Shown here in pieces: positions 2,951 through 15,466 of a stretch of 36,652 nucleotides of DNA (positions are counted from its first letter, which is position 1; every line of letters begins with the position of its first letter). The translations under genes were made by a program, and so were the position numbers. The notes under the pieces are model-generated. The model was given only the letters and a program-made list of their open reading frames with translations, was not told where the DNA came from and searched no databases. This DNA is from Prevotella sp. (lineage in GTDB: Bacteria > Bacteroidota > Bacteroidia > Bacteroidales > Bacteroidaceae): positions 1 through 36,652 of the forward strand of contig JAFZVV010000006.1 in NCBI GenBank assembly GCA_017617615.1, in the 5' to 3' direction.

Positions 2951-3030
2951 CAATGTCGAAAGACAAAAAGCAAATCCAAACAGGTTCGCCTGTCACAAAA
3001 CAAAAAAATAGTAACCAAAAAAATACAATT

Positions 3031-3192
3031 ATGAAAACAATGGAATTTACAACAACGACAGTTGCCCAGTTTGAGAATGAGGCAATGGCAGAGAAATTCA
3101 AGAAGTCTTTAAAGCGTGCCTTGACAAGTACCTTCAAGTTCTTGCTGTTCATCAGTCCGGTTTACCCACAGTGTACCCAGGAAATGAAATAA
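3031..3192 (+). CDS. Small hypothetical protein, 53 aa
   Basis: The family is not recognised. The ORF encodes 53 residues beginning MKTMEFTTTTVAQF, with a charged helix-prone middle (EAMAEKFKKSLKRAL, about 17-31), a hydrophobic stretch FKFLLFISPVY (about 34-44) and an ending with one Cys (PQCTQEMK). It has no signal peptide and the hydrophobic run is too short for a classical membrane span. The start was chosen because the predicted promoter at 2920-2950 places the transcript start after the alternative ATG at 2953. Its stop overlaps the ATG of an 18-codon micro-ORF (3192-3248), and a perfect 14-bp inverted repeat follows at 3296-3330. It faces the ClpX-like gene tail to tail. It could be a membrane-associated peptide, an adaptor, or a non-functional ORF; support is mainly the promoter and terminator-like frame. 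Confidence 0.45.
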   Translation: MKTMEFTTTTVAQFENEAMAEKFKKSLKRALTSTFKFLLFISPVYPQCTQEMK

Positions 3193-3248
3193 TGAAGATA
3201 CATGCCTATATTCATCACCCCTTCCCCGACAACGTGGTTACAGAATAA
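3192..3248 (+). CDS. Possible 18-aa micro-ORF overlapping the previous stop (TAATG)
   Basis: The ATG overlaps the TAA of the 53-aa ORF, an arrangement that permits translational coupling. The 18 residues (MKIHAYIHHPFPDNVVTE) have three His and two Pro and match nothing known to me. It may be fortuitous; only the overlap and position before the hairpin argue for it. Confidence 0.2.
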   Translation: MKIHAYIHHPFPDNVVTE

Positions 3249-3295
3249 AAAACAGAAAGAAATCATTTCCTCCTTAAATGTAGGACCAAGCCAGT

Positions 3296-3330
3296 GAGAG
3301 CCTCAAAAGCAGTTGACTTTTGAGGCTCTC
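3296..3330. terminator. Perfect 14-bp inverted repeat between convergent genes
   Basis: GAGAGCCTCAAAAG (3296-3309) and its exact complement (3317-3330) enclose a 7-nt loop. It lies between the 3' ends of the small ORF (plus) and the ClpX-like gene (minus). Neither side has a strong U-tract, so a bidirectional terminator or transcript-stabilising hairpin is the best reading. Confidence 0.6.
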
Positions 3331-3403
3331 ATCATTCTGCAAGTAAAGTGATGTCATTCTTCCAGACTACCAATGAATCACCATACTTTATAGCTCCAAA
3401 AAA

Positions 3404-4699
3404 CTATGCCGTTTTCAACTCCACGAAATATTTGTCGACGATGATTTGCTGGGAGTTGGGCGCGTACATGTCATCACTCAGGATATTGAACAGCAGTGAC
3501 TTGAGTCCCCTCACACCCAGGTGTCGGCGGATAGAGGCTGCTGCGATGGCCCTTGCTCCGTCTTCGGTAACCGAGATGTCGACATCGCGCATCTTGAAAT
3601 AGTTGACGAAAGTGGTGACAGGCGAATCCACCGAGTGGAGCAGGATGTTGACCAGGTCGTCTTCCTTCAGTTCCCTGGCATATACATATTGTAGAATTCT
3701 ACCAGTGAGTTCATCGCGGTGGAAATACTTGGCGAAATCGTCATCGTTGACATATTGATGGTAATCGCCCTCCAAATTGAATCCGCTCCCATTGGCAAAA
3801 CCGATACCATGGTCGCCAAGGCGCTTTCTGACGATATCCTCGATGCCGCGGAACACCCCAGTGAAGATGAACAGCATTTTGTTGGTTTTCATGCTCGTTT
3901 TCTCGTTATGGTAGATGGCGTCAGTTTGATTGAACGTCAACGTGTTGCTATCATCAATGATGTTGAGCAACTCATTGAGAATACGCTCATTGTAGCAACC
4001 ATTTTCAAATAACTTGTCGAACTCATCGAAAATAATCACTGCCGACGACATATCCTCCTTATATTTCATATAGAGTTGGGTGAACACAGTGGTGAGGGTA
4101 TTGCCCATGATGCCCTCCTGTACAAGACTGTTACAGTTGACCACCCCGAAAGGAACCTGAAAAATTTCAGCCAGTTTATGTGGGCCATAGGTCTTGCCGA
4201 CTCCCGAAGGACCGTGAACAAGAAGACTGGGACGGGGAAGATTCAACTGTTCGTCGTTTTTCCTGATTTCGTGCAAATAGAAGCAAAATGAAAGTTTTCG
4301 TGCATATTCAGGCTGACCAATGAGGTATCCACTCAGCCATTGCTCAATCTGTTGCGGGACGACCAAATGAGGAGCGGCTTCCATGACGGTTATTCCCCTG
4401 CCCTCAATCAACTGCACGACATCACCAAAGGAAACTGGGCCAATCTCTTTTTCCCAATTGCGAATGTGACGCTTGATATATCCATTATTGCTGGAAGAAT
4501 TGACGAAATCCATACGCTGTCTGGTAAGTAGACGAATGGTTTCCAACTTGTCGTTATTCAGTTGATTGGGAAGCATGGCGAGATGGTTCTTGATGACACG
4601 GATGTCGAGTAAAGGATTGAGAAAAAGCAAATGCCGGATTTGCTGGTTGAGTTTTTCTGACACAGATTCCTTGTCTTTTCTACTTGTTAAATTCTGCAT
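3404..4699 (-). CDS. Divergent ClpX-like AAA+ ATPase lacking the zinc-binding domain
   Basis: This 431-residue protein follows the ClpX order from about 120: Walker A GPSGVGKT (163-170), Walker B VIIFDEFDK (221-229), sensor 1 region MLFIFTGVFRGIEDIVRKR (275-293), an IGF tripeptide (299-301) where ClpX has its ClpP-docking loop, a candidate Arg finger in LTGRIL (R334), and sensor 2 GVRGLK (R397) in a ClpX-type C-terminal helical domain. It has no CxxC zinc finger. Residues 1-120 are an unfamiliar, mostly helical domain. The GYVG pore loop of ClpX aligns with GIMG (196-199), so the aromatic pore residue is absent, and I see no RKH loop. It is probably a cytoplasmic unfoldase or remodelling ATPase that may still dock ClpP. 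The true clpX is expected elsewhere in the genome. It stands alone behind a predicted leader of about 540 nt. Confidence 0.75.
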   Translation of the reverse strand: MQNLTSRKDKESVSEKLNQQIRHLLFLNPLLDIRVIKNHLAMLPNQLNNDKLETIRLLTRQRMDFVNSSSNNGYIKRHIRNWEKEIGPVSFGDVVQLIEGRGITVMEAAPHLVVPQQIEQWLSGYLIGQPEYARKLSFCFYLHEIRKNDEQLNLPRPSLLVHGPSGVGKTYGPHKLAEIFQVPFGVVNCNSLVQEGIMGNTLTTVFTQLYMKYKEDMSSAVIIFDEFDKLFENGCYNERILNELLNIIDDSNTLTFNQTDAIYHNEKTSMKTNKMLFIFTGVFRGIEDIVRKRLGDHGIGFANGSGFNLEGDYHQYVNDDDFAKYFHRDELTGRILQYVYARELKEDDLVNILLHSVDSPVTTFVNYFKMRDVDISVTEDGARAIAAASIRRHLGVRGLKSLLFNILSDDMYAPNSQQIIVDKYFVELKTA

Positions 4700-5248
4700 G
4701 AAAAAAATCGGATTTAAAATTTTTATTTAAACATAGATTCGATTGAGTGTCTCAATCATGAGGGAGAGCAAATGAAATAACAAATTCATTAACCCTAATA
4801 GCATTCGGCAATATGATTATTCCTATAAGAGCAAAAGTGTAATCACTCATTTTAAAAACTTTAACTATTATCCACTTGCAGGTAACTACTGAGTAACTAC
4901 TACTTTTATCAATAGATGAACACCAAATATTTAGTAGACTGAACATATTTCTACCAAAAATGTTTTGTACGTTGAAAACATATGGCTATATCTCCAATCA
5001 GGTGCATAAATGAGCCATCCATTCCCAAAAAACGAACGCTGCAGTCCATCTCTGAACTGCAGTGCACAAGCCTATGTTTAACTAAAAATCCTTTTCAAAA
5101 CCAAAGGGAGCCTCACGGCGACCTTTGTTGTCCAATTAAACAATCTAATTAAATACCTTAAACCTAATAACTAAAAACCTAAATCTATTACTACTAACCT
5201 AAACAATCTATTAACCTTGAATGATTGACTTCTCAATCATTGACAATG

Positions 5249-5444: not shown

Positions 5445-5897
5445 TTAGGTATTTGAAACCGTATTGTTGTCTGTCACTTTTTTCACATACATGTATTTGG
5501 GATAGTGGCCGAGCACGAAAAGCGTTACCGGGCAAAGCCACAGCGTGTCTCTTTGAAATTCTCGCCTGAATGCCTCGAGGCCTACCTTATAGGTACTGCC
5601 ACCGGTCAGTGAACTCTCCGTTTGCTTCAGTTCAAAATAACCTTCATGTTTCTCGGGTTCCTTTGTGGGTATCACGCTTATCTTGGTCGTCGTTCCGTCA
5701 TCAGACAAAAGTTCACACATATCATCTGCACCGCTTACCATCAATAGATTGTGGTGGTCGAACGGCCATTCTGGAAACACGACATACCAACCGCCATCTT
5801 CTTCTTTCTGGAACTCGATTTGATACTCATCTTTCCTACCAAACACGCTTTTGGCCATCTTGCCAGCACCATTCATCAAATCTTCTAAAGTGTACAT
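5445..5897 (-). CDS. Hypothetical protein, 150 aa (possibly DUF6717-like)
   Basis: This soluble-looking protein of 150 residues has no signal peptide. The N-terminus MYTLEDLMNGAGKMAKS is followed by YQIEFQKEEDGGWYVVFPEW (about 25-44), LMVSGADDMCELL (52-64), a variable middle, then DTLWLCPVTLFVLGHYPKYMYVKKV (about 117-141). The blocks IEF-K..WY...P-W, GAD.M..L and WLCPVTLF-YPK-IYVK remind me of small Bacteroidota proteins grouped as DUF6717, but this is from memory and unverified. No function is known. It is transcribed alone: a rho-independent terminator sits directly after the stop and there is more than 400 bp of gene-free sequence upstream, with no clear TAnnTTTG promoter. Confidence 0.65.
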   Translation of the reverse strand: MYTLEDLMNGAGKMAKSVFGRKDEYQIEFQKEEDGGWYVVFPEWPFDHHNLLMVSGADDMCELLSDDGTTTKISVIPTKEPEKHEGYFELKQTESSLTGGSTYKVGLEAFRREFQRDTLWLCPVTLFVLGHYPKYMYVKKVTDNNTVSNT

Positions 5898-6944: not shown

Positions 6945-6962
6945 CAAAAACGAATACTGATT

Positions 6963-8375
6963 ATGAAAAAACGACTTTTGCGATATGGCAGTATGATGGC
7001 AGCTGCCGCCGTCGTCGCTCCTAACGGAGCCGAGGCAGGCAACAAGAAAGAGCCGGCGACTCCCGAAAAGCCCAACATCATCTTCATCCTCGCCGATGAC
7101 ATGGGATATGGCGACCTCTCCTGCTTCGGCAGCCAGTATGTGAAGACCCCCAACATCGACCAACTCGCCGCCACCGGTACACGCTTCACCCAGTGCTATG
7201 CCGGCAGCGGTATCAGTTCGCCCTCACGCTGTTCGCTGATGACCGGCAAAAACAGCGGAAACACCCGCATCCGTGACAACCAGTGTCCGGTAGGTGGCAT
7301 ACAAGGCATAAAAATCAACGCGCGGGGCGACACCACCTATATCCGCCGTGCCAACCTCCTGCCAGAAGACACCACCATCGCCACCGTGTTGGGCAGCGCC
7401 GGCTATCGTACTTGTCTGGTGAACAAATGGCACCTCGACGGCTATGACCCTGGCTCGTCGCCCAACCACCGCGGTTTCGACGAGTTCTATGGCTGGACCA
7501 TCTCCACCGTACACTCCAACTCCCCCTACTACTATCCATACTACCGTTTCGACAACGACAAGCTCATCCATATCAAGGCGAATGCCCATGACAGGCACGT
7601 GAAACACAACACCGACCTGTCGACCGACGATGCCATCCGCTTCATCAAACGCAACAAGAAGAATCCGTTCTTCCTCTACCTCGCCTTCGATGCCCCACAC
7701 GAGCCCTACATCATCGACAACACCGTGTGGTATGACGACGAGACATGGGACATGAACACCAAACGCTATGCCGCCCTCATCACCCATATGGACGCCGCCA
7801 TCGGACGGTTGCTCGCAGAACTCGACCGGCTGCACCTGCGTGAGAACACCATCGTCATCTTCGCTTCCGACAATGGCGCTGCCGTACAGGCACCGCTTCA
7901 ACTATTCAACTGCAACGCGGGGTTCCGCGGACGCAAGGGACAACTCTACGAAGGAGGGATACGCGTGCCGCTCATCGTCAACCAACCCGGAAAGGTGCCG
8001 GTGCAGACGCTTAGCAACATCGTCTACTTCCCCGACATCATGCCCACGCTGGCCGCCCTCACCCATGCCACCGATTACCTGCCACAACACCTCAACGGCA
8101 TCAATATCCTACCGCTGTTCTATGGGCAACAGGTAGACACCGACAACCGTCTGCTCTACTGGGAATTCCCAGGAAAGCAGCGGGCAGCGCGCCGAGGCGA
8201 CTGGAAATGCGTCACCATCAAGCAGGACGCACCACTTGAATTGTATAACTTGAAAGAAGACATCACGGAAAGCCATAACCTGGCCGACCAATATCCAGAG
8301 ATGGTGGCGGAATTCGACCGTCTGATGCGCGCCTCGCGCACACCATCCCCCTATTGGCCCCTACCTGGGGAGTAA
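6963..8375 (+). CDS. Exported S-type sulfatase (arylsulfatase family S1)
   Basis: This 470-residue sulfatase begins with a signal-like N-terminus (MKKRLLRYGS, then an Ala-rich stretch) and a Lys/Pro-rich linker. The catalytic domain starts at KPNIIFILADDMGYGD, where Asp45 and Asp46 bind the metal. The activation motif is SSPSRCSLMTG (85-95): the residue to be converted to formylglycine is Ser85, so this is a Ser-type enzyme that needs an anaerobic sulfatase maturase. Such a maturase is encoded convergently next door (8361-9596). Later family features include FASDNGA and GFRGRKGQLYEGGIRVPLIV. Sulfatases of this kind remove sulfate from host or dietary glycans; the substrate cannot be told. The ATG at 6963 is chosen from the promoter at 6914-6944, rejecting a TTG start at 6915. 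Its last 15 nt overlap the maturase 3' end. Confidence 0.92.
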   Translation: MKKRLLRYGSMMAAAAVVAPNGAEAGNKKEPATPEKPNIIFILADDMGYGDLSCFGSQYVKTPNIDQLAATGTRFTQCYAGSGISSPSRCSLMTGKNSGNTRIRDNQCPVGGIQGIKINARGDTTYIRRANLLPEDTTIATVLGSAGYRTCLVNKWHLDGYDPGSSPNHRGFDEFYGWTISTVHSNSPYYYPYYRFDNDKLIHIKANAHDRHVKHNTDLSTDDAIRFIKRNKKNPFFLYLAFDAPHEPYIIDNTVWYDDETWDMNTKRYAALITHMDAAIGRLLAELDRLHLRENTIVIFASDNGAAVQAPLQLFNCNAGFRGRKGQLYEGGIRVPLIVNQPGKVPVQTLSNIVYFPDIMPTLAALTHATDYLPQHLNGINILPLFYGQQVDTDNRLLYWEFPGKQRAARRGDWKCVTIKQDAPLELYNLKEDITESHNLADQYPEMVAEFDRLMRASRTPSPYWPLPGE

Positions 8376-9596
8376 ACCCTTGGCTATCGCCTCCATCACC
8401 CTTGCCGGCGCACCATCATCACGGTGCCACTCACGCGCCATGAAGTGCATATAAGGCGCCACATGGGCGAAGAACTGCCGATAGCCCTCACAAAGCCAAT
8501 TCAGAGCCGCCTCTCCATCACCTGCATGGACGAGGCGGTTTTTCGGACACTCACCGTGGCATGCAAACAAATATGGGCATTCACGGCACTTTCGGGGCAA
8601 AGCGGTCTTGAGCCGAGCGAAGATGCCCTGTCGCTCGGAATAGCCCAATGCAGCCAAGGGCTGTTCGCTGATATTGCCCAACTTATAGGCAGGAAAGACG
8701 AAGTGGTCGCAAGAATAGACATCACCGTTCCACTCCATCGCCAACACATGCCCGCACTCTGCCGACATGGAACAGACACCCGGCGCCACGCCCACCCAGT
8801 TGGCCAACGTAGCATCGAAGAGTTGCACGAACACCTCTCCCACGTCCTCACGCACCCAGTCGTCGAAGACCGCGCAAAGGAAATCACCCCACTGCCCCGC
8901 CGACACCGTTTCTGCCGTCACCTCAGGAGCGACGCCCTCCGACGGCGCGAAAGGTTCCTGTCCGTCGGCACGCTCCACAATGGGCGTGAACTGGATATAC
9001 CGACACCCTATCTCCTTGAAGAAACGATAGAACTCATGCGGATAACGGGCATTCATGCTGTTGACCACCGCCATGGCGTTCCATTCCACGCCAAAACGGT
9101 TGAGCAGGTCGATACCCTTCATCACCCTTTCCCAGGTTCCTTTACCGCCATGGTCCTTACGGTATGCATCATGCATCCACTGCGGACCGTCTATCGACAC
9201 GCCTACCAACCAGTGGTTGTCGCGCAGGAATGCGCACCACTCCTCATTGAGGATGGTACCGTTGGTCTGCAGACAGTTGTCGATAACATGCCCTCCTGCA
9301 TACTTCTGCTGCAAGCGCATGGCGTTCTGGTAGAACGACAACGGACGGAGCGTCGCCTCACCGCCATGCCAGGTGAAGAGCACCTCGCGCTGCGTCTGGG
9401 CATTGATATACTGCCGGGTGAACCGTTCAAGCAGATCGTCGCTCATGACATGACGGGCGACACCGGCATATAAGTCTGACTTCTGGAGATAATAACAATA
9501 ACGGCACGACAGGTTGCACCGCGCGCCGACAGGCTTGAGCATCACATAAAACGGACGGACAAAGGGAGAAAGGATTTGCTTGGGGTCGCCGGCCAT
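8361..9596 (-). CDS. Anaerobic sulfatase-maturating enzyme (radical SAM/SPASM)
   Basis: This 411-residue radical SAM protein has the CxxxCxxC cluster motif at Cys27, Cys31 and Cys34 (RCNLSCRYCYYLQK). The C-terminal SPASM region has further cysteines: CSMSAECGH, YSCDHF and KCRECPYLFACHGECPKNR. This is the layout of anSME, which converts a Ser or Cys of sulfatases to formylglycine in the cytoplasm before export. The start at 9596 is 2 nt after the ispF stop; the longer in-frame ORF would run through ispF and is rejected. It is the last gene of the minus-strand porU-porV-ispF run and converges with a Ser-type sulfatase, its probable client. Confidence 0.93.
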   Translation of the reverse strand: MAGDPKQILSPFVRPFYVMLKPVGARCNLSCRYCYYLQKSDLYAGVARHVMSDDLLERFTRQYINAQTQREVLFTWHGGEATLRPLSFYQNAMRLQQKYAGGHVIDNCLQTNGTILNEEWCAFLRDNHWLVGVSIDGPQWMHDAYRKDHGGKGTWERVMKGIDLLNRFGVEWNAMAVVNSMNARYPHEFYRFFKEIGCRYIQFTPIVERADGQEPFAPSEGVAPEVTAETVSAGQWGDFLCAVFDDWVREDVGEVFVQLFDATLANWVGVAPGVCSMSAECGHVLAMEWNGDVYSCDHFVFPAYKLGNISEQPLAALGYSERQGIFARLKTALPRKCRECPYLFACHGECPKNRLVHAGDGEAALNWLCEGYRQFFAHVAPYMHFMAREWHRDDGAPARVMEAIAKGLLPR

Positions 9597-9598
9597 CC

Positions 9599-10078
9599 TC
9601 AGTCTTTCTCTATAAGGACGGTGGCGTAGGCCGACATACCCTCCTGACGGCCGGTGAAACCCAGTCGTTCGGTGGTGGTGGCCTTGATGGAGATGTTGTC
9701 GGGATCGGTACCCATCACCTCGGCAAGACACTGCTGCATGGCAGGGATATGGGGATTGAGCTTGGGGCGCTCGGCACATACCGTGGCATCGATATTCCCT
9801 ACCCTATAGCCCTTCGTAGCAATGAGGCGCACCACGTCGCGCAGGATGACCTTGCTGTCCATATCGAGCGTAGCATCCGAGGTATCGGGGAAATGATAGC
9901 CGATGTCGCGCATGTTGGCGGCACCCAGCAAGGCATCGGCAATGGCATGGATGAGCACGTCGGCATCACTGTGGCCCAACAGCCCCAAATCATGGTCGAG
10001 ACGGATGCCGCCCAACCACAAATCACGACCTTCCACCAACTGGTGGACATCGTATCCGAAACCTACACGTATTTTCAT
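9599..10078 (-). CDS. ispF: 2-C-methyl-D-erythritol 2,4-cyclodiphosphate synthase
   Basis: This 159-residue protein is full length for IspF. It catalyses cyclisation of CDP-methylerythritol phosphate in the MEP isoprenoid pathway. Visible landmarks are GFGYDVHQL near the start (metal ligands Asp10 and His12), LGHSDADVLIHAIADALLGA with the third metal-binding His, HFPDTS, and the C-terminal KATTTERLGFTGRQEGMSAYATVLI block. It starts 9 nt after the porV stop and ends 2 nt before the maturase start, so translation is probably coupled in one transcript. The isoprenoid role has no obvious link to its neighbours. Confidence 0.97.
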   Translation of the reverse strand: MKIRVGFGYDVHQLVEGRDLWLGGIRLDHDLGLLGHSDADVLIHAIADALLGAANMRDIGYHFPDTSDATLDMDSKVILRDVVRLIATKGYRVGNIDATVCAERPKLNPHIPAMQQCLAEVMGTDPDNISIKATTTERLGFTGRQEGMSAYATVLIEKD

Positions 10079-10087
10079 GACTACAAT

Positions 10088-11272
10088 TTACCTGCGCTTG
10101 AACAAGTCTTTGATACCGTCCATGTCGAACGAGAGCGTGAAACGCAGCGTCTGGTCGAGGGGGTTGCTCTTTGCCGTGGCAATCACATAACCCGCATCGA
10201 GAGAGAAGACGCTCATCCTGAAGCCGGCACCCACGGTGAAGTACTTGCGGTTACCTTTCGTCTCGCTCTCATGATGGTATCCCGCACGGAGGGCAAACTG
10301 GTCGTGATACACATACTCGGCACCCACACTCCACTGTATCTCCTTCAACTCCTCGGAAGCACCATTGGGCGCATCGCCGAAACTCTTGAAGATACCACCG
10401 ATGCTCGACACGTCGAAATACTCTTTCTCCAAACGGTCCTGATACTCCTGCGAGGTTTCCTCTTCCTTCTGCCTGGGATAGGTGGGAACGAGCAACTTAT
10501 TGGCATCGGCAGCGATGGTAAAGCGGTTGTACTCATCGACGGGAATCATCAGTGAGGCACCCAGACGCAGATTGGTGGGGATAAACTCGCTGTGCTCGTC
10601 ACCACCGAAAGTAATCTTGCTACCGATGTTGCTGACATTCAAGCCCAGACCCAACTGACACTCCCTGGCACCCAAGTTCAGGTAATTCTGGTAGTAGCAC
10701 GAGATGTCTGCGGCAAAGGCAGAACCAGGACTGGTATCCTCGGTGAAGTCGTAGGTAAGGTCGGAGTAGATCCACCTCACGCCAGCCGAGATAGAGAACT
10801 TCTCATTGAGCATAAGCGAGTAGGCCACGTCGAGCGACATCTCGTATGGGTTGATGGTCATGTCGTTGGTGGCATCGAGCGAACTGCTGGTGTACACCTC
10901 GCCGAGCGAGAAATAGCGCAGCGAACCCGACACGGCACTGTAGTCGCCTATGCGGTAGTAGCCCACGAGGTAGGCGAGGTCCATGTCGTTGACCAACTGC
11001 CGGAGCCACGGGGTGTAGTTGAGTGCCACGCCGGCACGGGAGATGGTGAACGGGTATTTGGCGGGGTTCCAGTATTGCGACACCACGTCGGGGTCGGTAG
11101 CAGCACCCACGTCGCCCATACCTGCCGAACGGGCGTCAGGGGCGATGGTCTGCGAGGTGACCGAGGTGTTCACGGGGTTGAACATCTCCTCTTTCTGCGC
11201 CTTTGCCGTCAGTGCGACGAAGGCGAGGACGAGGAGTGAAAAGATTCTCACTATACTTATTTTTACTTTCAT
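10088..11272 (-). CDS. porV: Type IX secretion outer-membrane protein PorV
   Basis: This 394-residue protein has a signal peptide ending TAKAQ (about 1-25), then the conserved PorV N-terminal region with TIAPDARSAGMGDVGAATDPDVVSQYWNPAKYPF. The rest is beta-barrel-like, with alternating patterns and an aromatic C-terminal strand (LRFTLSFDMDGIKDLFKRR). Family knowledge: PorV is a FadL-like outer-membrane shuttle that receives cargo from the translocon and delivers it to the PorU sortase. Location 47 nt downstream of porU agrees with this. The ATG at 11272 directly precedes the signal peptide. Other T9SS translocon genes are not in the window. Confidence 0.93.
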   Translation of the reverse strand: MKVKISIVRIFSLLVLAFVALTAKAQKEEMFNPVNTSVTSQTIAPDARSAGMGDVGAATDPDVVSQYWNPAKYPFTISRAGVALNYTPWLRQLVNDMDLAYLVGYYRIGDYSAVSGSLRYFSLGEVYTSSSLDATNDMTINPYEMSLDVAYSLMLNEKFSISAGVRWIYSDLTYDFTEDTSPGSAFAADISCYYQNYLNLGARECQLGLGLNVSNIGSKITFGGDEHSEFIPTNLRLGASLMIPVDEYNRFTIAADANKLLVPTYPRQKEEETSQEYQDRLEKEYFDVSSIGGIFKSFGDAPNGASEELKEIQWSVGAEYVYHDQFALRAGYHHESETKGNRKYFTVGAGFRMSVFSLDAGYVIATAKSNPLDQTLRFTLSFDMDGIKDLFKRR

Positions 11273-11319
11273 TACTGACCGTATTCGGGTTACAACAATA
11301 TTACTAACGGCAAGAGGCG

Positions 11320-14300
11320 CTAATTATTGCCTATCACGATGAGTTTCTTGGCTTTCGACACCATGTCGCTGCCATCACACGACACTCGCACACGGTAGAG
11401 ATAGACACCTGTCTGCAACCGCTCGCCGCCACCGGTGGTGAGGTCCCAGTCGATGGTCATCGCCCCTGTGGTGGAGACTTCCGTCTCGGTATATTTCCAC
11501 AGTTGCCTGCCGCTCATGTCGAAGATATCGAGTTCCACGTCCATCGTACTCCCCATGCGGTCGTGGTTGATGATGAAGGTGGTAGAGGTCTTGGCGGGGT
11601 TGTCGGTGCAGCCAATGCTGTAGAGCGTAGGTTTCAGACCGCTCACCACGTTGAAGGAGAGTTCGGCGGTGGTGGAGTTGTTGAGCATGTCCCAGGCGCG
11701 GAACCGCAGGGTATGGTGCCCCGGCGCAAGGGCGGGGATACTGTACGATGTCTTGCCGCTGGTGTAACTGCCGAAGTCGTAGGTGAAATTGTCGTTGAGC
11801 AGGTAGGTACGCGACATGTCATTGTCGATGACCAGCTCCAGGTCGTGGCCGATACCCGTGCCGGCTGCGTTGATGCCGTCCTTGTCGGTAATCTGCGCCA
11901 CGAAATATGGGGTGGAGTTCACCTCGTCGCCATTCGAGAACGACGGGGTATTGAGATAGCAGAACACCGACGGCCCGATGGAGTCGTTGTCGGTCACCTG
12001 CGTGCCGCCCACGATGAAACGGTCGGTGGCGCCATGGGCGATGCGCGTATGGGTATCATCTACGGCATAGAGGTTTATCATGCCACTGCCATTGGAATAG
12101 TTGATGTCCATGGGCACGGCGAAGGTAAAGGCGAAGTTGCCGGCACGCACACTGTCGGAGCCGTTGAAGAGCACGTTGGGACGGTCGTAGTACTGGAACA
12201 GCGTCCTTGCGTCCTCGGCCTGGCCCTTGCACACCACCAGTTTCTCGGAGTCGCGCACGGTGCCCGTGACAATGCCGTTGAACGTCGTGGCATGCTCGCC
12301 ATTGCACTCCACATGTCCCTTCACGCTCACGGTCTCCCCCGCATGGATGATGATATCGGCATCGTTGGCAAGCGCCCTGCCGTTGATGCTGTCGACCACC
12401 GTCCTGAGCATCGGCACGTTGAGACTCATCGCCGGGTCGCCGAGGAGAGAGAAGCGCAACTTGTTGGCCGTCACGTCCTCGCCGCCGACAATCATCTGGT
12501 TCTTCGCCAGACGCTGTGCCTCGCCAAGGGTGATGGGGCGCTCGCCTGTATTGTCGACCACATACCTCAAGTAGGCACGGTTGAGCGAGGCATTATAGCC
12601 CTGATACACCGTACGGGTGGTGGTGAAGGTGGCTACTGCCCCACCCTTCTTGTTGACGAGCATGGCCACACCAATGTTCTCGTCGACACCGTCGAAAGGA
12701 GAGATGTCGCACGAGGCAGTAATCCACAAGGGCAGGTTGGTATTGGTGAACTGTTGGAAATCCTTCAGGATGAGCACACGCTCATGCGAGATGTTGATTT
12801 CAGAGCCATGCCCCGAATAGTCAAAGATGAGGGCACCCGAGGCCTGTAGTTGTTTGATTTCCTTCGTGGCATCGGGATAGGTATTGCCTGTAGAGGTGGT
12901 GACACGCGTATAGGCGTCCCACATCACTTTCTTCGTCTGGTAACCGGGGTAGTTGTTGGCCACGATATTGGCGAGGCTGTTGGCATCGCTCATGTGGCTG
13001 TTGGAGTTGCCATCATCGCCGAGAACAGCGATGATGTTCTGCCAACTGCCGGCATTGGCGTTCTCCACATAACTGATGGTCTTGTCGGTGAGGGTCTTCG
13101 CGTCGTCGACGGTGGAGACGGGGAAACGGCCTATGGAGAGGTCGAGTTTGTCGGACGACATGGGGTTGACGCCCTCGCCGTCGTCAAGGAGACCATAGAA
13201 CCCGTCATCGACGATGCAATTCACTTCATTATAGGAATCCTCACTCTCATAGCAGAGCAGCAGGTCGTCGGCGGAATAGCCCCGGCAGTCGGAAGTGAGC
13301 AGGCGGTTGTCCCATTTGCCATCGCCGAAGAGGAAAAGGTGCTTGGGCATATCGGCCTCGCTGGTGGCACGGTCGTAGAGCATCTTCATATAGCGCCGGT
13401 AGGCATTGGCATCGGGGGTACCGCTCGAGAACTCGTTGTATATCTCGTCGGCAGGCACGATGCGCACCCGCATCGAGTCACGCTCCTCGTGCATCTTCGC
13501 GATGCGCTGGGCCTGACCGAACAGTTTCTGCGATGTGGGGATGATGATGACGAGGTCGGCAGGACCATGGGCATGCAGGTTCTGGTTGGTGATGCCATAC
13601 ACGTATTCGGGCTCGGGCAAGGAGGCTGAAGACAACCGCGGCAATGCCCGGGGTGAAGCGGTACAGATATCGATGTAGTCGAGTCGCGCAGGACCACCAG
13701 AGAGGGTGGTAATCGTGACGGTGTCGGTGCTGTTGAGGTTATACACGTCGTAGGTACCGACGGCCTCATAACCTTTGTCATAGCTACGCAGCGTGATGGA
13801 GAGGGTGCCGAGAATGGAGTCGTTGAGACTCACCTGCACCCGGGTGGCATTGCCTGCGGTCACCACGACAGCGATGGTTCCCTGCCTGTCACCACTGGGA
13901 TTGGCGAGGGTAAAGGCATGCGACTGTCCGGCGGCTATGGGTGTATTCTCGAAGAGTTTCCTCCCGCCATGGAACCAGGCGAAGTTGTCTACCTCATGCA
14001 GCGAATGGTAATTGGCGGGCATGGGATAGCAAGAGGCGACGAAGGCAGCACTGTCGAGCAGGGAGGGTGTGTCGTCGCACTGCGTAATGAAATAATAGCC
14101 GTAGTCGGAATAGGGATTGCGGATGCGCTTCATCGAGGAAGGCTGCGACCAACTCACCGGGCCCTGGGCATAGAACAGCCGACGGCCGTTGATGGTGCAG
14201 GTAGGCACTTCCTTCAGGTCATCGGTGGCAACCAGTTCGTCGGGCACCAACCGTTCGTTCTGCAGCGCGCCGCCATAGCCAAAGACCTTTACTTTGGAGA

Positions 14301-14859
14301 GATCTGAGAAGCCCGCCTGGCGCACCAATGCCTCGGTGAGCTGGTAGATGCCCGAGGAGGGCACCCTGATCTTTGCCCAGTGCCCGGAGGCAAGGACGGA
14401 GTTTTCGGCATAGCGCTGCGAGGCTGCCAGCGGTGCCCTCCTTGCTCCCGCACGAACGGGACGGGCCTCCACGGCGAGCATAAAACTCACCAGAAACTGG
14501 TATTTCCCTTCTCTGTAAACCAACGGAACGAAACGCACCTCCATGGCACCTTTTTTCCTGTCGACCACAATGGTGGTCTCAGGCTCGGGCATCTCGGGCA
14601 GGGGCGCATCGGTGACACGATGGTAGCGCCGGATGTCGGAGGGTGTCATGTCGTAGAACTCGGGATAGCGGATACTGACGGTATATACCGAGTCGGCATA
14701 ATGCTCACCCAGCGGTATGCTGCACCCAAACTGGGGCAACACGGAGTCTATCCTCACCTCGTCGGCGGTGAGGTTGTAGAACCGCTGTGCCCCTGCCGTC
14801 GCGAAACAGGCGAGCAGCAGGATGACGAGCATGGACAACCGGTATGACTTACTTGACAT
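11320..14859 (-). CDS. porU: Type IX secretion sortase PorU (C25 peptidase)
   Basis: This 1179-residue exported protein is the expected size for PorU. The signal peptide is 1-25 (MSSKSYRLSMLVILLLACF, ending AGAQ). The gingipain-like C25 domain spans about 470-830: FLFGDGKWDN, catalytic His684 in DYSGHGSE and catalytic Cys717 in TASCDISPFDG. A long beta-rich region follows, and the C-terminus is a T9SS sorting domain (IFDMSGRQLWKY, GVYLYRV, ending SKAKKLIVIGNN). PorU removes the C-terminal signal of T9SS cargo and attaches it to lipopolysaccharide at the cell surface. The start at 14859 overlaps the upstream FAH gene by 11 nt; an ORF extension to 15036 would lie inside that gene and is rejected. 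porV follows directly. Confidence 0.95.
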   Translation of the reverse strand: MSSKSYRLSMLVILLLACFATAGAQRFYNLTADEVRIDSVLPQFGCSIPLGEHYADSVYTVSIRYPEFYDMTPSDIRRYHRVTDAPLPEMPEPETTIVVDRKKGAMEVRFVPLVYREGKYQFLVSFMLAVEARPVRAGARRAPLAASQRYAENSVLASGHWAKIRVPSSGIYQLTEALVRQAGFSDLSKVKVFGYGGALQNERLVPDELVATDDLKEVPTCTINGRRLFYAQGPVSWSQPSSMKRIRNPYSDYGYYFITQCDDTPSLLDSAAFVASCYPMPANYHSLHEVDNFAWFHGGRKLFENTPIAAGQSHAFTLANPSGDRQGTIAVVVTAGNATRVQVSLNDSILGTLSITLRSYDKGYEAVGTYDVYNLNSTDTVTITTLSGGPARLDYIDICTASPRALPRLSSASLPEPEYVYGITNQNLHAHGPADLVIIIPTSQKLFGQAQRIAKMHEERDSMRVRIVPADEIYNEFSSGTPDANAYRRYMKMLYDRATSEADMPKHLFLFGDGKWDNRLLTSDCRGYSADDLLLCYESEDSYNEVNCIVDDGFYGLLDDGEGVNPMSSDKLDLSIGRFPVSTVDDAKTLTDKTISYVENANAGSWQNIIAVLGDDGNSNSHMSDANSLANIVANNYPGYQTKKVMWDAYTRVTTSTGNTYPDATKEIKQLQASGALIFDYSGHGSEINISHERVLILKDFQQFTNTNLPLWITASCDISPFDGVDENIGVAMLVNKKGGAVATFTTTRTVYQGYNASLNRAYLRYVVDNTGERPITLGEAQRLAKNQMIVGGEDVTANKLRFSLLGDPAMSLNVPMLRTVVDSINGRALANDADIIIHAGETVSVKGHVECNGEHATTFNGIVTGTVRDSEKLVVCKGQAEDARTLFQYYDRPNVLFNGSDSVRAGNFAFTFAVPMDINYSNGSGMINLYAVDDTHTRIAHGATDRFIVGGTQVTDNDSIGPSVFCYLNTPSFSNGDEVNSTPYFVAQITDKDGINAAGTGIGHDLELVIDNDMSRTYLLNDNFTYDFGSYTSGKTSYSIPALAPGHHTLRFRAWDMLNNSTTAELSFNVVSGLKPTLYSIGCTDNPAKTSTTFIINHDRMGSTMDVELDIFDMSGRQLWKYTETEVSTTGAMTIDWDLTTGGGERLQTGVYLYRVRVSCDGSDMVSKAKKLIVIGNN

Positions 14860-15466
14860 TGAACTCCAATAATTTCTTTTCTTCCACAAATCCCTCGATA
14901 TGGTCGTCGACATGTGCCTCTCCATCGCCCTCAGGCGAGCCAGTGAAGAGGAGATCGCCGGTACGCAACGTGAAATAGCGACTGATATAGGCCACGAGGC
15001 TGTCGATGTCGTGGCGCATGTCGCCAGCGAAGCCACGTTGCACGGTAGTGCCGTTCACATTGAGATGGAAATGCAGGCCGTCCACCTGTCCCACCTCCTC
15101 TACTGGCACCCAATCACCTATGGCAGCCGCCCCGTCGAAACTCTTGCAGAGATCCCAGGGCAACCCCTGCTGACGCAACTCCCGTTGAAGGTCGGTGGCG
15201 GTGAAATCGACACCACACGTCACGGCATCATAGTAGCGGTGGGCAAAGCGCTGTGGAATGCTCTTTCCCAACCTACAGATACGTACCACAAGCGACACGC
15301 CGTAGCCAACGAGCCCGATGTCATCGGGCAAGAAAAATGGACGTCGCCCCTTAAGCAGCGACGAATCGGCCTTGGTGAAAATCACAGGGTTGTGGTAAGA
15401 GAATAACGTATTTTCGCCCGAATTATTGTGTGGGGCGTAGTTGGCATCGACAGCAAAAATCTTCAT
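14849..15466 (-). CDS. Fumarylacetoacetate hydrolase family protein
   Basis: This 205-residue protein starts MKIFAVDANY, a typical start for the short FAH family. It contains the conserved core: a Glu-less N-part with IFTKADSSLL, FLPDDIGLVGYGVSLVVRI, the middle block FAHRYYDAVTCGVDFTATDLQ, then KSFDGAAAIGDWV and the C-terminal LLFTGSPEGDGEAHVDDHIEGFV. Members act as acylpyruvate hydrolases, oxaloacetate decarboxylases or related C-C hydrolases with a metal ion. The exact substrate cannot be assigned. The ATG at 15466 is preferred over an in-frame start at 15517. Its end overlaps the porU start by 11 nt, so it is cotranscribed with the secretion genes, a placement that may be only historical. 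Confidence 0.85.
   Translation of the reverse strand: MKIFAVDANYAPHNNSGENTLFSYHNPVIFTKADSSLLKGRRPFFLPDDIGLVGYGVSLVVRICRLGKSIPQRFAHRYYDAVTCGVDFTATDLQRELRQQGLPWDLCKSFDGAAAIGDWVPVEEVGQVDGLHFHLNVNGTTVQRGFAGDMRHDIDSLVAYISRYFTLRTGDLLFTGSPEGDGEAHVDDHIEGFVEEKKLLEFNVK

Follow-up and report, generated by a model that had tools for sequence, protein, structure and literature searches.

In ClpX, unfolding depends on contacts between substrate side chains and the pore loops, and the aromatic residue of pore loop 1 is viewed as central to the grip of ClpX-type motors (PMC6677533). Departures from the canonical enzyme have been described. According to PMC11423568, Myxococcus xanthus carries, alongside canonical ClpX, an extra ClpX (ClpX3) with neither the N-terminal domain nor the RKH motif, which has a role in high-temperature growth and is not reported to have a new N-terminal domain; because ClpX3 keeps such a role, ClpX variants of this kind can function. 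In Actinomycetota, an extra class of Clp unfoldases, ClpI, was likewise found by sequence and has a variable N-terminal domain, with ClpP-docking loops in one sub-class only; ClpI differs in being of the double-ring type, like ClpB and ClpC, and in having intact unfolding motifs (PMC10149685). Here, we describe a gene on the minus strand (3404..4699) of a 36,652-nucleotide stretch of Prevotella sp. DNA (contig JAFZVV010000006.1; the whole stretch is referred to as the window), encoding a ClpX-like AAA+ unfoldase of a family with a GIxG pore loop. With moderate confidence, the sequence evidence suggests that its product would form an accessory AAA+ ring, built like ClpX and working with the host ClpP.

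The open reading frame (ATG at 4697-4699, stop at 3404-3406) specifies 431 amino acids, of which residues ~110-431 form an AAA+ core that is ClpX-like both in sequence and in the fold predicted by AlphaFold2, sharing with ClpX the large and small AAA+ domains and the overall fold. The set of AAA+ ATPase motifs is complete, comprising Walker A (GPSGVGKT, residues 163-170; 4190..4213), Walker B (IIFDEFDK, residues 222-229; 4013..4036), the arginine-finger motif (GRI, residues 333-335; 3695..3703), in which Gly333 and Arg334 are invariant, and sensor 2 (GVRGLK, residues 395-400; 3500..3517), and Walker A, Walker B and sensor 2 are conserved in the family. All of these features, like the other parts of the protein given below, lie on the minus strand. 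The ClpP-docking type tripeptide IGF (residues 299-301; 3797..3805) falls opposite the GxGF loop in alignments to solved ClpX chains, and opposite the V-G-Y/F slot when the comparison is with host-type ClpX, so that the docking loop matches that of ClpX in position and in residue type; in the AlphaFold2 model the stretch 301-308 is an internally disordered segment with a predicted local distance difference test score below 50, and IGF sits at its edge.

In contrast, the zinc domain, the GYVG pore-1 loop and the RKH loop that distinguish ClpX from the family are missing. The pore-1 loop of the window protein reads EGIMG (residues 195-199; 4103..4117), without an aromatic, compared with (E/Q)AGYVG in ClpX, and the region aligned to the RKH loop (residues 256-272; 3884..3934) reads FNQTDAIYHNEKTSMKT, from which RKH is absent. 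In place of the zinc-binding domain stands a helical N-terminal domain (residues 1-108; 4376..4699), with predicted helices at residues 13-26, 33-45, 48-67, 73-85, 91-98 and 105-108. A Pfam search with residues 1-108 alone returned nothing above the cut-off (best score 14.8 bits against 27), and a sequence search of the PDB with this domain gave no match better than E 0.18. The first-pass annotation had read the ATPase motifs, the IGF tripeptide at the docking position, the missing zinc-binding domain, the unfamiliar N-terminus and the replaced pore aromatic from this one sequence, and each of these observations is borne out.

Homologue searches retrieved 267 proteins at E <= 1e-5 and a profile search 229 at E <= 1e-40, the best 120 being used in each case. 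Conservation was scored on an alignment of 162 single-domain sequences that includes the window protein; three entries were omitted, namely two tandem fusions (P0178 and P0179) and P0001, which is the window protein read from a later start codon. Residue 197, a tyrosine in ClpX, is Ile in 161/162 sequences and Val in the remaining one. The adjoining residue 198 is far more variable (V 108, I 23, H 9, R 9, M 4, L 2, E 2 and one each of D, Q, Y, G and K), so that a tyrosine next to the pore-1 Ile/Val position occurs in one of the 162 sequences. In the docking tripeptide the middle residue is Gly throughout (162/162) and the third is Phe (154) or Tyr (8), while the first is I, V, L or M in 144/162. 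The column entropies of the tripeptide are 1.85, 0 and 0.28 bits, compared with a mean of 3.36 bits for the rest of the loop (residues 295-315): the tripeptide is a conserved island within a variable loop, and the conservation of residue 197 and of the docking Gly and Phe/Tyr is more than chance. The N-terminal domain (residues 11-108) has a mean column entropy of 2.51 bits, compared with 1.70 bits for the core (residues 110-431). Among 120 proteins, the window protein and 119 relatives, none has a CxxC...CxxC zinc motif in its N-terminal 150 residues, and the letters RKH are present, at any position, in 4/120 relatives.

Canonical ClpX was sampled at 35 loci, from six carriers of the family and 29 genomes of the taxonomic family of one of them, G002, which we take to be Bacteroidaceae in GTDB. 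These proteins have GYVG and RKH in 35/35 cases and V/I-G-Y/F in the docking slot, and the zinc motif is visible in 32/35. Judged by sequence, the N-terminal domain and the pore change mark a whole family and not the window protein alone. Two members are tandem fusions of two unfoldase units, P0178 (772 amino acids) and P0179 (776 amino acids). Their first copies keep EGIVG and have EDF or TDF as the docking tripeptide; their second copies keep IGF and have QAGIFG or HGGFVG at pore 1. Aromatics at pore 1 are thus not wholly absent from the family, because the second copy of P0179 has Phe (HGGFVG). In these fusions it is possible that labour is split between subunits.

In a maximum-likelihood tree of 49 proteins, drawn by midpoint and without an HslU outgroup, 23 family rows lie on one side of a branch with 100/100 support; the other side holds 12 ClpX rows of host type and a further 14 ClpX-like rows from bacteria, phages and viruses. 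The tree program warns that one of the viral rows, L079, is long and meets the branch of the family. In this tree the window protein does not group inside canonical ClpX. The protein also falls far below both NCBIfam ClpX cut-offs (154.5 bits against 359 for NF003745; 134.5 against 370.75 for TIGR00382), and its identity to ClpX is only 23-28% among the matches listed, while M. xanthus ClpX3 is reported to be 43.54% identical to Escherichia coli ClpX (PMC11423568). HslU was likewise rejected (41.5 bits against the TIGR00390 cut-off of 362.45). By the defining features of ClpX the protein would not be ClpX, and it is best filed as a ClpX-type unfoldase variant.

Canonical clpX scores above its cut-off once in each of the six relatives' genomes (G001-G006), which hold 3, 2, 3, 1, 1 and 2 family copies, respectively; a separate canonical clpX, which the first-pass annotation had proposed looking for, thus accompanies the family in 6/6 cases. 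Visual comparison assigns the three copies in G001 and the three in G003 to the same three subfamilies. A ClpP match of 253-267 bits is present in 9/9 carrier genomes tested among the relatives, seven of which also have a frame of ~600 amino acids, presumably SppA-like, that matches ClpP weakly (26-32 bits). The genome records of the six relatives are of Prevotella or Prevotellaceae and name sheep omasum and yak rumen for two of them; the label 'RUG' on the other four we take to denote rumen. Genome surveys, in which only the best first-look candidates (4 to 14 per genome) were scored, placed family members in 7/299 genomes of the genus of G002, including the carriers G001-G004 known beforehand, and, beyond G002 itself, found none among 393 genomes of its order or 296 of its phylum. 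A looser search (E <= 1e-20) gave matches in 189/201 genomes, and those listed outside G002 scored 203-225 bits, as canonical ClpX does; G027, G167, G177 and G195 have two to three matches each in that search, and the extra ones may be distant family members. The family is small and patchily distributed, in rumen and related bacteria.

In the proposed partnership with ClpP, six subunits would form a ring whose helical N-terminal domains would select particular clients instead of ssrA-type tags. A small adaptor-like protein is encoded beside the family gene in two other branches, where it would also contribute to client selection. Since ClpX unfolding needs pore-loop contacts (PMC6677533), the change from Tyr to Ile and the loss of RKH should alter recognition and grip: the Ile side chains would hold the substrate more softly than Tyr does, which would be appropriate for clients that are labile or already unfolded, or for remodelling that is only partial, and the client chain would be handed into ClpP through contact with the IGF loop. 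Paralogues in one genome, which differ in the third pore-1 residue (V/I/L, H or R) and in their N-terminal domains, may serve different clients.

Several observations weigh against this partnership. The first docking residue is of another kind in 18/162 sequences (KGF 13, TGF 2, and PGF, SGF and RGF one each), family genes are not linked to clpP in the neighbourhoods of the copies, the adaptor-like partner occurs in 2/9 carrier genomes and not beside the window gene, and the loss of the aromatic and of RKH could make the pull too weak for proteolysis. An alternative is a ClpP-independent remodeller, which would part-unfold or disassemble a specific complex and release it, its docking-like loop meeting another partner. 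In its favour, the pore-1 aromatic is absent in 162/162 sequences, the window protein has other residues in place of the RKH loop, the genes are solitary without clpP nearby, and partial unfolding is the reported means by which mitochondrial ClpX activates ALAS (PMC7077987). The invariance of the docking Gly and Phe/Tyr in all 162 sequences while the surrounding loop drifts is nevertheless what ClpP docking demands, and we regard this alternative as unlikely. It is improbable that the protein is instead a modulator of housekeeping ClpXP, forming mixed rings with ClpX or competing for ClpP and so tuning its use; although the docking slot is that of host-type ClpX and ClpX coexists in all six genomes, the low identity to ClpX among the matches listed, the conservation of Walker, finger and sensor motifs within the family itself, and a distinct N-terminal domain together with several paralogues better fit an autonomous motor. 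A defence or conflict module, to which the rare, patchy occurrence, the unrelated neighbourhoods, the weak IetA/IteA matches and the proximity of one copy (L110) to a CHAT-TPR protein might point, is very improbable, given that those matches are generic AAA ones far below cut-off (PADLOC IetA at best 25.3 bits; IteA, rejected as an identity, 26.3 bits against a curated 510), that no effector gene recurs beside family copies, that the four window neighbours scanned gave no PADLOC match and that viral and phage matches are at most 35% identical among the matches listed. The first-pass annotation suggested an enzyme that unfolds or remodels proteins and recognizes its substrates differently, possibly as a ClpP partner; this fits the evidence, and the defence-type option is not supported.

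The window gene is solitary, and an upstream stretch (4700..4848, minus strand), delimited by blastn blocks and alignment, stays with it in otherwise unrelated loci and may hold its promoter. The blocks span 3394-4848 in L001 and 3396-4847 in L003 and reach 4776 in L004 and 4771 in L005, so that these four loci share with the window the gene and 72-149 bp upstream, the match ending near the stop codon. In L006 the match lies inside the gene, with one further 70-base match elsewhere. L002 shares the gene and 166 bp upstream, with nothing matching further upstream; on the downstream side it matches all the way to window base 1, except for an additional ~0.7 kb of its own. The esterase gene downstream has relatives (71-74% DNA identity) in G001, G003-G006, G267 and G274, on other contigs than the family genes. 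This pattern fits a move of the gene on its own, upstream region included. The ratios of nonsynonymous to synonymous substitution rates of the window gene against L001-L005 are 0.28, 0.14, 0.28, 0.16 and 0.15, and the gene is under purifying selection.

Downstream of the stop codon, a 16-bp inverted repeat (3295..3331, minus strand) is a candidate transcript end on the basis of folding energy, the 61-nucleotide stretch that contains it having a minimum free energy of -27.4 kcal/mol (z -4.57); it is without a T-run and absent from the terminator-like hits, and is not a textbook terminator. The palindrome recurs elsewhere in G005 (89% over 35 bases). Beyond it, ~2995-3197 has the look of a dispersed repeat with a small open reading frame, over a dozen of the matches listed for it falling in G002, G004 and G005 (73-92% over 36-200 bases). 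Upstream of the unfoldase gene lie a DUF6717 protein (82.1 bits; 5445-5897), a sulfatase (Pfam, 197.7 bits; 6960-8375) and, by eye, a putative sulfatase-maturing radical SAM enzyme adjoining it (8361-9779, minus strand), a putative ispF (9599-10078, minus strand) and two open reading frames resembling PorV and PorU of the type IX secretion system (10088-15036, putative).

Among other family loci, L103, L107 and partly L110 represent one subfamily in a syntenic block, where its neighbours are a metallophosphatase, a protein with LysM and zinc-ribbon features and a GrpE-like protein (73 bits in L107). Protein kinases are encoded near two family members, at 7926-9194 of L002 (Pkinase, 105.8 bits) and at 6118-7173 of L107, the latter assigned through a BLAST link to the former. 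Homologues of the adaptor-like partner designated P0154-P0159, P0161, P0162, P0165-P0167, P0169 and P0172-P0175 contain 4.8-7.3% Trp and 0.5-2.1% Gly. Because their Trp residues stand at the Gly positions of relatives, they are probably proteins of organisms reading TGA as Gly, which we take to be Absconditabacteria/Gracilibacteria, translated with TGA as Trp. No Trp-rich proteins of that kind were seen among 164 unfoldase hits examined.

Taken as a whole, the family might represent an undescribed class of unfoldases that would partner ClpP in rumen and related bacteria, a proposal that we advance tentatively and at somewhat less than even weight: rings with an Ile grip, multiple paralogues in one genome that differ in their N-terminal domains, dedicated adaptors in some branches, spread of one gene together with its promoter, and tandem fusions in which alternate subunits share out grip and docking. 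Such proteins can be misnamed when annotation relies solely on the AAA core, as with P0111, which bears the source annotation ClpX. A family in which Ile occupies the pore-1 position in 161/162 sequences and the docking tripeptide is yet kept constitutes a natural test of how much grip is needed for proteolysis, and also of how a new N-terminal domain rewires client choice.
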